A stretch of DNA of 64,000 nucleotides. It comes from Onthophagus taurus. Taxonomy: Eukaryota; Arthropoda; Insecta; Coleoptera; Scarabaeidae. Made by a program: the position numbers and the translations under genes. Below the pieces are notes generated by a model. It did no database searches, was not told the DNA's origin, and worked only from the letters and a program-made list of their open reading frames with translations. The number at the start of each line of letters is the position of its first letter. Position 1 is the first letter of the stretch. The stretch covers positions 18,724,001 through 18,788,000 of the forward strand of contig NC_091968.1 of NCBI RefSeq assembly GCF_036711975.1. Direction: 5' to 3'. Positions 1,619 to 47,232 of the stretch are shown one piece after another.

Positions 1619-1779
1619 GCACACTATCGCGGAACGGAATGGATCGGAATGCGCATGCCCTCTAAGAAGACAGCAATGCCCAGCATCTTACTTCAGAAAT
1701 CGCGAGCCTACACTAGATATAGGGTAGTATAAAAAGGCCTTAACTTTATTTCAGTTTTAGTGTGTATTGTTGTTCTGCA

Positions 1780-3620
1780 ATGGATACCTCAGATGAAGAG
1801 TTTGTGGCGTTGTGTGTAGCTTTAGAAGGAGAAAACGAGAGGACAAACAGGAAAAAGTGTAAATGGGTTCATGAAATCAACCTAAAGAGACAAGATTATG
1901 GGAAATTTCATCATCTATTTCCAGTCCTTTTAGAAGACGAGGAAAAATTTTTTAAATACTTTCGAATGTCTACTGAGAAATTCTACGAATTGTTGAAAAT
2001 GTTAGACATTCAGAAACAAGATACGACATTTCGGAAAGCTATTAGCGCAGAAGAAAAGTTGGCAATGACTTTGAAGTAAGAATTGTTTTTATTGATTTTT
2101 TACAAATTTGTATAAATATTATCATTATCTACTGTTACGGTATGGTTAGAACTTGAATATGTAGCGTGGATTTGTTCTGTTGAATCTCTCGAATCTTCGG
2201 CATTCACATTGGCACCAAAACTTGATGTTTTCATTGCCTTGAGTTCGAATTCACAGAGCAACATTAAAATTCGATGTTTAACTTCTATTTGTAATTCAGG
2301 CAAATTTATTTCATTATTTTCGAGAAATCTCTGTAATCCATCTGCTGTTTTTACTTCTGGTTTTGAAAGCCGTTTCGGTTTAGAGATGGTTGATGTCGTG
2401 GAAGTTGTTGAGAGTGTCTCTGAAGTAGGTGACAAAACTGCCGTTTCATCAAATTCACAAACTTGAGGTTCAAAATGGGCTTGGTTCTATAAAAGTATTT
2501 TCTGATGGTACATCTATATTGGACTTTTGTGGTCTTTCCTTAAGATTTGGAAGAAGAAACCCCATTTCATCTTCTTACTTCCACTTCTTTGTAATAGTAT
2601 CAGCAGAATCGCCACTTTTAGACCGCTTTTTAGCTTTTGCCTTTCTATAGCAATCTTTTAAATTATTTCATTTTTTTTTACAATCTTGAACTGAAAAGGA
2701 TATAATATTTAATGATTTTTTAGGTTTTTGGGACATGGTGATTCGTTTGTTAGTTTGGCGTTTAGATACAGATTAGGGGAGTCAACACCACGAAGCATTG
2801 TTTATGAAGTTTGTACTGAAATTTAGTCGAAACTTCACTCCATTGTTGGCGAAACATAGGAAAAGATTTTTGTACGAAATGGAACTACCCAAACTGTATA
2901 GGTGCTTTAGATGGAAAACATGTTGTGACAGAAAAACCACGTAACAGTGGGTCAACTTATTTTAATTATAAAAAAGAATTCAGTGTTGTCCTGATGGCAC
3001 TAGTCGATGCTGATTTAAGATTTATTACCATCGATGTTGGGGCTTATGGTAAGAACAACGATGGAGGTATTTTCAAAAATTCAGCACTAGGAAGACCTTT
3101 AAATGGTGGTACATTGAATATACCTGGACCAAAAAAGTTGCCTGGAAGTGATACTTTAATGCCTCATGTAATTGTAGGGGATGAAGCTTTTCCTCTAACT
3201 ACAAATCTCATGCGTCCATATCCTGGAATACAACTTCGAAATAATAATAACAAAAAAATTTACAATTACCGACATAGCAGAGCTAGACGATGTAGCGAAA
3301 ATGCCTTTGGTGTACTTTGTAAAAAGTTTAGGATATTTTTCAAAAAATTACACGTTATTCCTGAACACCTCGACAAAATAATTATGGCAGGTACTTGCTT
3401 GCACAACTTTTTAAGAAATGATAAATGTTCTTGGCAACCTGATGAACTACAGCAAACAGAAGTGCTACAAGGTTTAGACCGTATTAGAAATATGGGAGGC
3501 TATTGTACTCGTGATGCAATAAATGTTCGAGATAAATTCTCAGAATATTTCAGTACGCCTGAAGGACTTGTTCCTTGGCAAAATGAACGGATTCAGAGAG
3601 GTCGAAGACAACTCCAATAA
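1780..3620 (+). pseudogene. Harbinger transposase (HARBI1-like), two exons, broken
   Basis: Exon 1 is 1780-2075, starting MDTSDEEF and holding the N-terminal RMSTEKFYELL region. It ends at a GTAAG donor with two bases left over. Exon 2 opens at 2724 after TTTTTTAG and restores frame as KFLGHGDSFVSLAFRYRLG. A stop near 2824 and a frameshift lead into WRNIGKDFCTKWNYPNCIG, then ALDGKH (first Asp), DVGAYGKNNDGG (second Asp) and a C-terminal SRARRCSENAFG with the Glu. These are the DDE_Tnp_4 motifs. The 648-bp intron contains the second exon of the antisense MADF gene. Nonfunctional as it stands, but the DDE core from 2900 on is open. Confidence 0.85.
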
Positions 3621-4258
3621 TATATATTATTATATAAAAAATTATAACAATAAATAACGTTACAATGCAATATTAGGTACTTACCCGGTATTTTCATTTC
3701 ACTAACAATTTCTTCCCACGCGTTTTCTTTCATTTCTTGGTTGTGATAATTTTTATCAGGTAACAAATAAAGATGTGGATAACCACGGATTAAGTCTATT
3801 AAAAGTTCACGTAAAAAGGATAGGATAATGGATTAAAAAACGACAATCAATTAATCATTCCAATATTTCGATTCTATATTGAATCTTCTTCAGGGAGTGA
3901 ACTTTGATTGTAAAGAAACCGGGCAAAAGTTAAATACAAAAGTATTACGTCTTAATTTTTCTTGCGTAATACGCTCACATGTTTGGTTGGGTTAATACGT
4001 TATGGTTGTAACGGCGTGGTTTTGTTTTTTATATGAAGAAAAATTAAGACGTAATACTTTTGTATTTAACTTTTGCCCGGTTTCTTTACAATCTAAGTTC
4101 ACTCCCTGAAGAAGATTCAATATAGAATCGAAATATTGGAATGATTAATTGATTGTCGTTTTTTAATCCATTATCCTATCCTGGAACAACAATTTTTACG
4201 TGTCGCTAACGGGATAAACAAGTATCTCCTTCTAAGATATTAAAAGTTCTTCATTCAT
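2100..4258 (-). pseudogene. Harbinger MADF-domain accessory gene, two exons, broken
   Basis: Read on the minus strand. Exon 1 starts at Met 4258 (MNEELLI), is split by the foldback insertion 3809-4237, and resumes from 3808 as DLIRGYPHLYLLPDKNYHN then NAWEEIVSEMKIPG, ending at a GTAAGT donor at 3684. Exon 2 starts at 2690 after CTTTTCAG in matching phase and gives VQDCKKK-stop-NNLKDCYR, the second half of the MADF fold, then SKSG and MGFLLPNLKERP. Two nonsense changes (TGA in place of a MADF Trp, and TAA) and a frameshift near 2450 precede a C-terminal tail ending at 2100. MADF proteins of Harbinger elements are thought to bind DNA and aid transposition. The intron contains the sense transposase exon. 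Confidence 0.75.
3809..4237. mobile_element. Foldback insertion with 12-bp target duplication, Penelope-like
   Basis: Two inverted arms of about 145-160 bp (3809-3965 and about 4040-4215) surround a 75-bp spacer. The sequence TATTAAAAGTTC lies on both sides (3797-3808 and 4238-4249), a 12-bp target duplication inside the MADF exon. Each arm carries CTGAAGA, a GATTC/GAATC stem and GAAA, which matches a hammerhead core (CUGANGA, stem II, GAAA). Inverted arms, a ~12-bp duplication and a hammerhead-like core fit a non-autonomous Penelope-like element. A truncated relative of its end is at 53152-53226. Confidence 0.65.
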
Positions 4259-41272: not shown

Positions 41273-42860
41273 TGTTAGGCTTGAAAACTTTTGTAGAATG
41301 TCAGCTGAAGATTTTGAATATTTTTTGATGAAAATTGGACCCAAAATACAAAAGCAAGACAACAACATAAGACCAGCTATTGCTGTGAAAGACCGTCTAG
41401 CAGTTAGCCTTCTTTTTGGCTAATGGTATTACTTTATTTAACTTAAATGTGACTTATTTGTTATTGAAAAACCCATCCGTACTACTATAATAAGTTAATA
41501 TTGCATCACTTGATTGAGTATTTTCATAATTTTCTTAACAATTGTTGGTACCATTAATTGCTGGGGAAGCTGCATGGACAATGCCAGGTGAATTTACATA
41601 GATTGAGCTGGGAAAAGATATAGTTCTGGGAGAGCAGGAGATATAGACTTATCAACGGAACAATCAAGTTCATTCATCTCTGCCTCAAAAACGAGGTTGT
41701 CTATTTTGTTTTGCAATATGACTTACGTTCTATGGGATAGTGTTTTTAGTTTAATCGTAACTGCCCATATAACGTAGCGATGCCTGGGATTGCCGCTTGG
41801 AAGTTAGACTTGCCATGGTACTACTTGGCAACTCTCACTTGCAAACGGTTGCTTTAAATGATCTTTTACGCTGAATTCTTGTTTGTTGCGTAATTTGCTG
41901 TTTGTTGGTCTGGCATCGGGGAATGTTTCCTGCTCAAGATGAGAAGTTTCAAGCCCTAAAGATCTCTCAACCTGGGTTTCTTGAGAAGTCTCATTCTCTA
42001 AATATCCCTCAATCTGGGTTTCCTGTAAAACATAGTTACATTTTTCACATAGAATTATTTATTAAATAAATAATAATTATACAACAAAAAACAGCTAACA
42101 ATTTTGTTTTTAGTTGCCAAAATTAGAGGAAGAAAGAAAAATAAGAGCAAATGGATTTAATCAACGATGGAACAATTTCCTAATTGTGTAGGGGCAATGG
42201 ACGGAAAACATGTTTTACTTTAAGCTCCATTCAATAGTGAATCGGAATTTTATGATTATAAAAAGTCTATCAGTATCATACTTTTGGCATTTGCTGATGC
42301 AGTTGGTGCACAAGGAAGAATGAACGAGTTCTGTGTGTTTGCAAGTACAACACTTTATCGTAAGATGATAGGATACAAAAGGAACTTTCGGTTCCAGGAC
42401 GTCAACAAAGAATGCCATACGCTTTTCTCTTAGTAGCACACTTTTGAAACCATATTCAGGAAATCATGCTAAGAGTAGAGTTGAACGGATTTCCAACTAT
42501 CGACTTTGTCGCGCACGATGAGTTATTGAAATAGAAAACGTTTTTGGCATTTTAGCATCCGTAGTCCGTATTTTTAGAAAACCAATGTTGGTACAACCCG
42601 AAAAAGTTTCTTTCTTTTGCATGACACTATTTCATAATTTTTTAGTTATATTCTCTAAATGGAGTTTTTAATTTTGAAGCAGACGGACATTTTATACCAG
42701 GGACATGGCGCCAAGACATTAGCAATTAATCGCTTAAGCCATTTTCAAAAGTACTCAGAAAACCGTCCCAGGATGCAAAATATATTCAAAGGGAGTTTGC
42801 AGAATGTTTTTCAACCAATGGAGCAGTTGAATGGTAAGAATATGTCAATTAGTTGATAGT
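41273..42860 (+). pseudogene. Harbinger transposase, element 2, decayed
   Basis: Exon 1 (from about 41273 to 41421) reads MEVHLVRLENFCRMSAEDFE, then KIGPKIQKQDNNIRPAIAVK, a HARBI1-type N-terminus. Exon 2 begins at 42114 after TTTTTAG, and across shifts reads GFNQRWNNFPNCVGAMDGKH, YDYKKSISIILLAFADA and later IPGTWRQDISN and REFAECFSTNGAVEW, the C-terminal end of the family. Many stops. Terminal repeats were not found. Confidence 0.7.
41590..42022 (-). pseudogene. Harbinger element 2, MADF-gene second exon
   Basis: On the minus strand a TATGTTTTACAG acceptor is followed from 42022 by ETQIEGYLENETSQETQVER, then KDHLKQPFA, and after stops QNKIDNLVFEAEMNELD. Acidic linker plus a short C-terminal helix is how the MADF proteins of elements 1 and 3 end. 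It lies inside the intron of the sense transposase, as in those elements. Assignment rests mainly on this shared layout. Confidence 0.45.
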
Positions 42861-43206: not shown

Positions 43207-43415
43207 TAAAGCCGCGTTGACATGGGTAATCACGAACGTGAGCTACGCTTTCGTAAGCTACGCTGAGCGTGTCAACTACTAGATTCGTGAAATACGAAGC
43301 GTAAATACTTTTCACGAACAGAAATAATTCCGATCGTGAAAATATTAAACCTGTTTGATTTTTGTATCTTGTGGCCAGTCGTGAGCAAAGCAGGAGGACA
43401 GTAAATTGTTAAATT

Positions 43416-45207
43416 ATGGCTGCTCATATTTTAAGAATGAACGATGCAGACACCAATACATTTCTGGAACTATATCAAAATGAGCCAGTTTTGTGGGATC
43501 CGACCAGGGAGGACTATAAAAAGGAGAGTCTGCAATGGAAATCGATGGTTTTACAGAAATCCATGTAATAATGAAATTTAAAAATTTACGTAGCTCCTAT
43601 TTGCAAGAAATAAAAAAGATTAGGCAGAGTATGAAGTCCGGGTGTTGTTCTGATGAAGTTTATACTCCCAAAGTGAGATGGTTCAAAATAATGGATTCTT
43701 TTCTCAAGCCGGACGTAAAAGCAAGAGAAACCCAATCAAACTTGGTAAGTGTTTATTTTAATTTATAAGTAAAAAATATATATATATGTATATATTACTA
43801 AATCTAGCCAGTATATCATTTCCTTACACATTTTGAGAATGTAATGTGGTACTTTTTTTACTCCTCAACAATTTGCCATTGCCAAGGAACTGCTCCCTCA
43901 TGGTTAAAGTAGTTGCAATATTCATCTCTTTTTACCAATGTTGATCTGTTCGGGTGTCTATCATGTGTCGCAGTAATGTCTATAAGACCAGAACTGCTTA
44001 TTTGCCGCCAAGTTCCCGGAATTACATTGTAGTTTTCGTCTTCAGAATCAATTAGGTTAGCTGCCACATAACAGTTACCAGTTTTTCGAAGCCAGTTATG
44101 TATTGAGCAGCAGGTTTTTACAATTTTATCAACTTTTTGTAAATCTACGGCAATTGGCCTTTCAAATATTGTAAATTTTGATGCTAGTAGAAATACTTCT
44201 TGCTCTGGACAGCTTATAATTGAAAATACGTTCAGCTCTGGATAATTTTCGTTTACTGCATGGTTTGAGTAGAGATGTTGTTAAAGGAAATGCATTATCA
44301 GCAACAATAACTGCATTTGGAGGCATATTCAGTATGTTTGCCTCCATAGCTTCATTGAGGCAACAGTTTCGCCACACACCCCCATCTGATGCCCTGCCTT
44401 TAGCTCCTATATCCATATATGTGAAACAATAATTATGATCAACTAAGGCAAGCAAAATTATGCTGAACGATTGTTTATAATTGAAATAATCGGACCCAGT
44501 TTTATGCGGCGCTCTTATAACTATATGTTTGCCATCTAGTGCCCCAATGCAATTTGGGAAGTTCTACTTAGTTTGAAATCCATTAATTATATCTAGCCAT
44601 TGATTTTCTTCACTGGGCACCTAAAAACATATTAATGTATATAATATATTTATAATCAGAAAAATGGTAAATTACAAAAGGGTGGGCCTATATAATTTTT
44701 TTCTTGTTATAGGATATTACTGTATTGATAAATGAAAAGCCAGATTCACCTGAAGATAATGCAATAGCATCTCAACAATTGAACGAAGAACAACCATCCA
44801 CATCTAAAGAAACGCAATGCCAAAACGACTCTTTAAAAAGAAAGTTTCTACACACTTCTACAACAACACCTCGTAAAAAGAAGCTATGTTCGACACCTGC
44901 TGGTGACATTAATTCTGCGATAGACAAACTAGATGATATTTCTAAAAGAGCTGCTAATGCCAGTGTATCAAAAGAAGATTGTTTCGATCATTTTGGAAAA
45001 TATATTGCTTCTCTTTTACGAACTCTACCACTAGATCGATCACCACAACTACAATCGGAAATAGTTTCTATGATTTTGAAACCGACAATTCCCACATATT
45101 CAATACTCTCCAGCGCGTACTCACAGAACTCAAATTTCATTACAAATTCGACTACAAACTCGGAAAGTATTCAAAGTGGACCACCATCGAGATCATTTGA
45201 TCTCTGA
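43416..45207 (+). pseudogene. Harbinger 3 MADF-domain accessory gene, two exons, one frameshift
   Basis: Exon 1 (43416-43744) starts MAAHILRMNDADTNTFLELY with EPVLWDPTREDYK, shifts frame near 43560, then reads MKFKNLRSSYLQEIKKIRQS and DEVYTPKVRWFKIMDSFLK: a whole MADF domain. Donor GTAAGT at 43745, acceptor TTGTTATAG before 44713, phase 0. Exon 2 (44713-45207) has a Ser/Thr- and Lys-rich linker (STTTPRKKKLCSTPAG) and a helical tail (FGKYIASLLRTLPLDRSPQL). The protein probably binds DNA and escorts the transposase. Its intron holds transposase exon 2 on the other strand. Confidence 0.8.
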
Positions 45208-45830
45208 GTTAACTTCGGACATGCGCAATTAGCAAATGTACTTACAAATAAACATACAAATACTTCTATGTATTTGCTTTGGGAAATATATGTTTTGCAA
45301 ACCATGACTTTTTATTACCTTTCTGTTTAAAATATTTTATAGTTTAAATGTGCCCCCATGAGCCTACGAAAACTATACGAGAATTTAGAGGAAAGTCTAG
45401 TTGCCATACCAATAATAAGAATACCGTTTGGAATTAAATAACGTTTTTACTTACCTTGATAAATTCTTTTAGAGCATCACACACTGCATCTAAAACTTCT
45501 TCTATAAATTTACTTATCGATGATTTGGGTACTCTAAATAAATATACTAAACTTTTAAAAGAGTCTCCAGTAGCTAAATATCGAAGTGTTATTTGCAGTT
45601 TCAATTTGGCCGATAGAGCTTCTCTCATATTAGTGGATTTTCTTTGAATTTTGGGGCTAACGAGTTCCAATAAATAATTAAAATGGTATTCCGACATACT
45701 AAGCAAATTTTTAAAATCTTCAGGGTACTTGGAGACGTCTTTCATTAAACTAGTATGACTTCTTTGTAGAATCCATTTCTACAAATTCCTTGTCCACCAT
45801 CGTCTTTTCTTTCTTTTTTTTGCCAAATTT
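43858..45830 (-). pseudogene. Harbinger 3 transposase (HARBI1-like), two exons, few lesions
   Basis: Exon 1 (about 45830-45455, minus) reads KWILQRSHTSLMKDVSKYPE, LLSMSEYHFNYLLELVSPKI and ALSAKLKLQITLRYLATGDS, with one early TAG; donor GTAAGT. Exon 2 (44620-43858) starts VPSEENQWLDIINGFQTK, then a TAG where related proteins have Trp, then NFPNCIGALDGKH (first Asp), YMDIGAKGRASDGGVW (second Asp), VIVADNAFPL, FNYKLSRAR, NWLRKTGNC and NVIPGTWRQI. The DDE core is otherwise readable except near the SRAR-ENAFG step. The intron (44621-45454) contains MADF exon 2. Confidence 0.85.
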
Positions 45831-46179
45831 TGTGAAATCCTGTCTGTTATCACACCACACAAAACTTGACATGCTCCTGCCACCAAGCACTGCATATTCA
45901 CGACTGAAGCAAATACCTACCGTGTAAAACCGTTTCACGAAAGAGGCATGACCACAGTCGTAAAATAATTAGATTCGTGATACCACGCGGGTGCCTCTTG
46001 TTCGTGATTCACAACCCATGTCAACGCGGCTTAAAGGTGTTACAGCCATATTACTTCGTGCTTTTAAAAGTGATAGAATTGTTTTTACTTTTAAAACTGG
46101 GCATTCACTTTGTCATTATCATTCAAATTTGAAAATAGTCAACAACATGAGAAATGCAAGGTTGGAAAGTTTGTACATT

Positions 46180-46983: not shown

Positions 46984-47232
46984 TCATATAAACTCGTAAA
47001 TACCTTTGGAAATAAACATCCTTGCATCCAGAATCACTACTTTCAGATTCTCGAACTTTTTTTGATAAGGATCTGCACGTAGACATAAGAGAATTCTTTT
47101 TCTGTCGTTTAATTTGTTTCGGTTTTTATGGTGTGGGTCCTTGGGATTCCAAAGCACAGGATACCTGTCATATAGATGGATGAATTCCATCATTAAATCA
47201 TTAATCCATTCCATTTTGAGTATCTGCAACAC
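46984..47232 (-). pseudogene. MADF-domain fragment
   Basis: MEWINDLMMEFIHLYDRYPV then LWNPKDPHHKNRNKLNDRKR is the first half of a MADF domain, with the FI.LY...P.LW and KNR positions. The Trp expected after ND is missing and the second half is not found. It may be a leftover of another Harbinger accessory gene or part of a decayed host MADF gene. Confidence 0.6.

Follow-up and report, generated by a model that had tools for sequence, protein, structure and literature searches.

A PIF/Harbinger element at positions 43210-46031 of the analysed stretch of Onthophagus taurus DNA (64 kb, hereafter called the window) has two convergent genes of two exons each, a MADF gene on the plus strand (exons M1 and M2) and a transposase gene on the minus strand (exons T1 and T2), and the exons alternate in the order M1 (+), T2 (-), M2 (+) and T1 (-), just as the preliminary description had read them. 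From comparisons of sequence, we consider it likely that this chain-linked build is a structural variant of PIF/Harbinger that works by ordinary splicing. Support for the layout is stronger than could be known from the window alone, since divergent families of the same genome repeat it.

The sequence shows that the last exon of each gene, mostly together with its poly(A) signal, sits within the partner's single intron, and that the two last exons face apart across a short spacer bounded by the 3' splice sites of the opposite transcripts. The proteins would probably be made from ordinarily spliced convergent mRNAs that have little or no overlap once processed. As the frames of both genes imply, neither protein would be made without splicing, and a deletion in the middle of the element would tend to disable both genes.

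Structure and splice sites of the window element

The element is flanked by the 3-bp target-site duplication TAA, which abuts its left end (43207-43209) and its right end (46032-46034), and its 18-bp terminal inverted repeats (43210-43227, plus strand; 46014-46031, minus strand) pair at 18 of 18 positions. Together with a DDE_Tnp_4-type transposase and a second gene with a Myb/SANT/MADF domain, both recognised in sister copies, these ends place the element in PIF/Harbinger. When the less damaged sister copies were scored, DDE_Tnp_4 (PF13359) was found in T2 at 3.4e-33 and MADF (PF10545) in M1 at 3.9e-14. The transposase obtained by joining C4 exon 1 to C2 exon 2 reads ..DALKEFIK/VPSEENQW.. across the junction (the slash marks the exon border) and gives a single DDE_Tnp_4 match; D29, D108 and E145, which we take to be the catalytic residues, are invariant across eight aligned families. 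Both proteins are indicated as needed for transposition in the rice and zebrafish elements, according to the consulted part of PMC9710019.

From left to right, M1 with the MADF domain (43416-43744, plus strand) is followed by T2 with DDE_Tnp_4 (43858-44620, minus strand), a 92-bp spacer with the T acceptor at one end and the M acceptor at the other (44621-44712), M2 with a region resembling BESS in profile comparison (44713-45207, plus strand) and T1 (45455-45895, minus strand). Instead of standing side by side, outside each other's introns, the two convergent genes are thus arranged with M2 in the transposase intron and T2 in the MADF intron. All four splice sites lie at the bases initially predicted and are in phase 0, namely AAG/GTAAGT (T donor), TTTTTAG/GTG (T acceptor), TTG/GTAAGT (M donor) and TTATAG/GAT (M acceptor). 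Among the sister copies that span the respective site, the M donor is conserved in all six, the M acceptor in all four, the GTAAGT of the T donor in all six and the T acceptor in three of four, the exception being copy C6.

For each of 16 representatives, 500 dinucleotide shuffles of the transposase intron served as a control for the length of its longest antisense frame. The observed frame was longer than in all shuffles in 12 representatives and was matched by a single shuffle in two (beating 499); in L054 and L067, in which the M2 frame is broken, it was matched by 18 (beating 482).

The motif TCACGAA/TTCGTGA occurs nine times in the window, and six of the occurrences fall within the element, three near each end and upstream of both genes (starting at 43230, 43284 and 43312, within 43230-43318, and at 45935, 45974 and 46001, within 45935-46007). 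By analogy with the Myb-like protein of Harbinger3_DR, which binds a subterminal 9-bp motif (consulted part of PMC9710019), these are candidate binding sites of the MADF protein. In the surroundings of the element, fragments of another Harbinger transposase lie just to its left on the plus strand (42164-42834 and 41283-41417), and a weak MADF-like match (E 0.006) lies about 1 kb to its right on the minus strand (47059-47184).

Sister copies and coding capacity

The genome searched (290.8 Mb in 33 contigs, including the window) has seven further copies of the window element (C1-C7, with C3 made up of two loci). They are about 78-96% identical to it over the longer aligned pieces, and several have deletions or insertions. 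Next to copy C2 stands the L022 element (G000:C11, 3352233-3358222), so that two Harbinger families lie side by side there.

Comparison with these copies did not bear out the initial view of the window element as complete, because both genes have frame lesions that the sister copies lack. M1 is out of frame through the loss of 1 + 30 bp (31 bp) relative to C1-C5, a place where C6 differs. T2 carries a stop in frame at codon 19 and a 17-bp loss relative to C1-C4, in the stretch ahead of the catalytic E, and T1 has nine extra bases containing a stop, which are found in none of C1-C7. The C-terminus of M2 is also unlike that of the other copies. The window element is therefore a defective PIF/Harbinger copy; its layout stands, but its coding completeness does not.

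A two-way acceptor region and the ends of the messages

The distance between the first bases of T2 and M2 was measured in 15 of the 18 loci listed and ranges from 30 to 194 bp. The spacers are 30 bp in L048, 35 bp in L020 and L022, 42 bp in L049, 49-50 bp in L037 and L025, 52 bp in L050, 92 bp in the window element and L018, 94 bp in L028, 98 bp in L051, 114 bp in L045 and L046, 169 bp in L056 and 194 bp in L047. Read on the transposase strand, 14 of the 15 spacers start with CTR and all 15 end with YAG (the M acceptor of L046 is changed), which indicates one short stretch ending in an acceptor on each strand. Given the usual distance between an acceptor and its branch point, the branch points of the shortest spacers would have to sit within the exon of the other gene.

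In 14 of 16 representatives, a poly(A) hexamer stands between M2 and the T1 donor. On the other strand, the hexamer after T2 precedes the nearest word resembling the M1 donor (within 400 bases) in nine of the ten representatives that have such a word, the exception being L046 with a short word. In the window element, the candidate hexamer of the MADF gene (45247-45252, plus strand) is within the transposase intron, and those of the transposase gene (43752-43762, minus strand) are within the MADF intron beside the M1 donor, starting 8 and 13 bp past M1; the transposase message may extend slightly into M1. With poly(A) signals mostly inside the intron of the partner, the mature mRNAs should hardly overlap, and the pre-mRNAs would be complementary over about 1.5 kb.

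Two intron architectures

The families that we compared were picked by similarity to the window transposase, all within this one genome, and have two architectures, A and B. The B group, to which the window family belongs, is one clade (support 95/96). Its transposase intron follows ..(F/Y)(I/L)K, ahead of VPSEE in the window family, and its MADF intron follows the MADF domain; both are in phase 0 in most families, and the candidate M donor of L041 and L042 is in a different phase. In A, the transposase intron lies after ..TLR and before (Y/F)LATG, in phase 2, and the MADF intron splits the MADF domain.

The split is seen in the domain matches. All five first MADF exons of type A tested (L049, L050, L051, L054 and the window at 3.6-3.8 kb) match the profile only from position 1 to 36-37, and all four second exons tested (L048, L049, L050 and L051) match it from position 42-45. 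When joined, the halves match positions 1-84 of the profile in L049 (1e-17) and L051 (1.9e-20). Because joining restores the full MADF match, the exons flanking T2 belong to one gene. In L050, the M donor could not be placed.

The joined M of L049 and L051 has both PF10545 and PF02944 above the cut-off, as expected of a MADF-BESS protein, and a BESS motif above the Pfam cut-off was found in M2 of L049, L050, L051 and L061 (weak in L048, 0.15). No Pfam match, to BESS or to any other domain, was obtained with the B-group M2 exons tested, including that of the window family; they were identified by frame length, place, acceptor and resemblance among themselves and to the A group. B-group and A-group M2 are homologous over the BESS stretch (hhalign 89.5%, E 2e-6).

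Distribution in the genome

The exon-2 search gave 147 scored matches from 983 candidates; 144 of these matches entered the tally, together with 150 exon-1 rows of A type. Of the 144 exon-2 matches listed, 89 are accompanied within 3 kb by an exon-1 match on the same strand. The two transposase exons are, again among the matches listed, separated by 250 bp or more in 84 of these 89 cases and by 250-1300 bp in 80. A MADF match (from the best 150 of 921) lies on the opposite strand within 2.5 kb downstream of 60 of the 144 listed; in two of these 60, the same strand has a MADF match as well. Note that the gap and MADF counts show room for M2, not M2 itself.

The preliminary description had suggested a search for conserved exon order among relatives in the host genome, and we carried this out by assigning the states of 30 tips of a transposase tree from their DNA. 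Four parts in the interlocked order were found in 19 of the 30 tips, from both B and A (L018, L020, L028, L036, L037, L038, L041, L046, L047, L029, L031, L062, L066, L067, L048, L049, L050, L051 and L054). Among these, L036 and L038 are close relatives; M1 is weak in L048 (E 0.003), L031 (8.7e-6) and L046 (tblastn E 0.28, but 2.6e-8 with the Pfam model); and M2 is a remnant in L066 (15 residues like those of L062, E 0.001) and runs in two frames in L054 and L067. Judging from equal-score rows at many places, L048, L049, L050 and L051 are probably recent interlocked families. Three parts were found in four tips, namely L056 and L065 (both without T1), L061 (without M1) and an element at 1744-3832 of the window, in which the M2 frame gave no domain match. 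L063 has both genes, but unlinked. The transposase intron is too short for M2 in L052 and L053, and a Pfam search of the antisense frames downstream of these two gave neither MADF nor BESS. L064 has a short transposase intron (60 bp) and is interrupted by a retroelement recognised by eye, L058 is an internal-deletion derivative, and L035 and L039 were left unclassified because exon 1 fell outside the stretch analysed.

The element at 1744-3832 is a second, distantly related Harbinger element with introns of A type, and looks chain-linked, old and partly broken. It comprises T1 (1744-2076, plus strand), an antisense frame in the place of M2 (2103-2486, minus strand), T2 (2820-3617, plus strand) and an M1 with half a MADF domain (2.7e-8; about 3650-3832, minus strand). 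In two near-identical Harbinger copies (L039 and L040), the transposase intron upstream of T2 is enlarged and holds a 254-amino-acid open frame that by eye resembles a mariner-type transposase.

Intact relatives without introns at these places, which the preliminary description took as counting against the layout, were looked for. No DNA copy of a spliced junction was found in the genome for the window-family transposase, the window-family MADF gene or the transposase of one A-type family (0 matches with up to 3 mismatches allowed), although this absence, as a stand-in for RNA, proves nothing either way. Non-interlocked relatives do exist (L063 and, judged by their short introns, L052, L053/L055 and L064), but in other, distant families. 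L058 and L059 were also considered as intron-less relatives and were rejected, because their frame retains a few codons of the intron end, which makes them look like internal deletions of the L061 family; compared with L061, they have lost the transposase intron and M2 together, leaving the transposase frame almost continuous. No relatives outside this genome were confirmed in viral and prokaryotic contig collections, as expected of such DNA.

Evolution of the link

On the transposase tree, the intron position changes once. Counting L052 and L053 as unlinked beside L063 requires three or more changes of the interlock state (26 tips, with L035, L039, L058 and L064 left out), and the grouping of the 23 interlocked rows, including partial ones, apart from L052, L053 and L063 was rejected (p-AU 4.1e-5); one change suffices if only L063 is counted as unlinked. 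L052 groups with L056 (93/82), and the sister of the window-family group is L063 (80/84). With the two short-intron families included, there would have been more than one loss or gain of the link, and the several switches rest on L052 and L053, which may just have lost the MADF gene. The tree has no outgroup, and the direction of change, gain or loss, cannot be told from it.

It is quite possible, if somewhat short of an even chance, that a single ancestral interlock existed, that A and B differ by later relocation of the introns, and that the non-interlocked families lost the link. The single change of intron position on the tree, the homology of M2 between A and B, and the lack of a recognisable MADF gene in L052 and L053, as losses would leave, all agree with this reading. 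Against it, in passing from A to B, exon 1 of the transposase would have to gain about 46 codons from exon 2 and a like shift would be needed for half a MADF domain, the two shifts being on opposite strands, and the phases of the transposase intron differ (2 versus 0). More than one origin is considered mainly because the introns of both genes differ in position between A and B, and we regard repeated gain of the chain link as rather doubtful. If true, it would point to a self-limiting, inseparable two-gene design, of which we know no description for DNA transposons. As to how the link could arise, if the middle of an unlinked element with convergent genes, both already interrupted by introns, were duplicated in tandem, and the first T2 and second M2 were then lost, the chain link would result; the MADF frame of L063 (PF10545, 1.8e-14), which runs uninterrupted through the place of the B intron of its relatives, argues against the simple form of this model.

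Ratios of dN/dS on pairs of exon frames were not used, because close pairs had few changes, distant pairs were saturated and frames were not found in five comparisons. The values were 0.39-1.10 for M2 (five close pairs, few changes), 0.42 for L018-L020 (dS near saturation) and 0.27-1.60 for the other exons.

Function or packing

The strongest rival to the reading given at the outset, with a chance only a little below even, is that the layout is compact packing that is hard to undo and that, apart from requiring splicing, leaves expression unaffected. The close tiling of the exons, with gaps as small as 30-50 bp, and the family with both genes unlinked (L063) fit such packing, but the existence of A and B, which place the introns of both genes differently, fits a single frozen accident badly. 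We think it unlikely that the layout is a regulatory device in which complementary pre-mRNAs give rise to double-stranded or small RNAs, making expression self-limiting and keeping the two proteins in balance. The extent over which the primary transcripts would be complementary speaks for such a device, as does the retention of the layout in families whose exon-2 proteins share only about 40-60% identity with that of the window family; the scant overlap expected of the mature mRNAs and the unlinked genes of L063 speak against it. Coupling at the RNA level is a fair hypothesis, which the present results neither support nor refute. The idea of chance open frames, or of a fused pair of unrelated insertions, draws on the broken frames of the window copy taken alone and is practically negligible in view of the seven further copies, the recurrence of the four parts in order among the tree tips, the shuffles and the full MADF match on joining exons.

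Comparison with known systems

The chain-linked layout was not found described in the literature searched, with Repbase and subscription papers lying outside that search. Markova et al. (2022; PMC9710019) describe insect PIF transposase-MADF pairs as neighbours, and the words opposite, orientation, antisense and overlap are absent from the main text of that paper; the consulted parts of PMC11893794, PMC10901741 and PMC3212995 do not describe the layout either. The zebrafish Harbinger3_DR shares with the present element the DDE transposase with a Myb/SANT/MADF partner, the 3-bp target duplication and the inverted ends, but interlocking is not mentioned in the consulted description (PMC9710019). 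In the same source, as far as consulted, the Anopheles pairs APLG1/APM1 and APLG2/APM2 stand side by side, 97 and 179 bp apart, and the co-domesticated lepidopteran pair LPLG2/LPM2 is likewise described as side by side, none of them as interlocked; one co-domesticated insect PIF pair is annotated there as a single transcript (PMC9710019). In every species but one, the cockroach BPLG2 transposase has two exons separated by an intron of about 900-1500 bp (PMC9710019). That length would be compatible with a chain link in the past, although no MADF gene was observed beside BPLG2 in the consulted account.

If RNA confirms the layout, these families would offer reciprocally nested antisense gene pairs in a series of natural replicates, and at least one unlinked relative, L063, would be available for comparison within the same genome. 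They would make a general question testable, namely whether antisense overlap of the primary transcripts of co-working genes is a function or a tolerated packing, and back-to-back acceptors 30-50 bp apart would be a strict test of the minimal DNA that two opposite introns can share. Among other DNA transposons, two offer a likeness to the chain-linked element: to our knowledge neither has exons nested reciprocally in each other's introns, but MuDR carries the convergent genes mudrA and mudrB in one transposon, and in the P element germline-limited splicing controls transposition.
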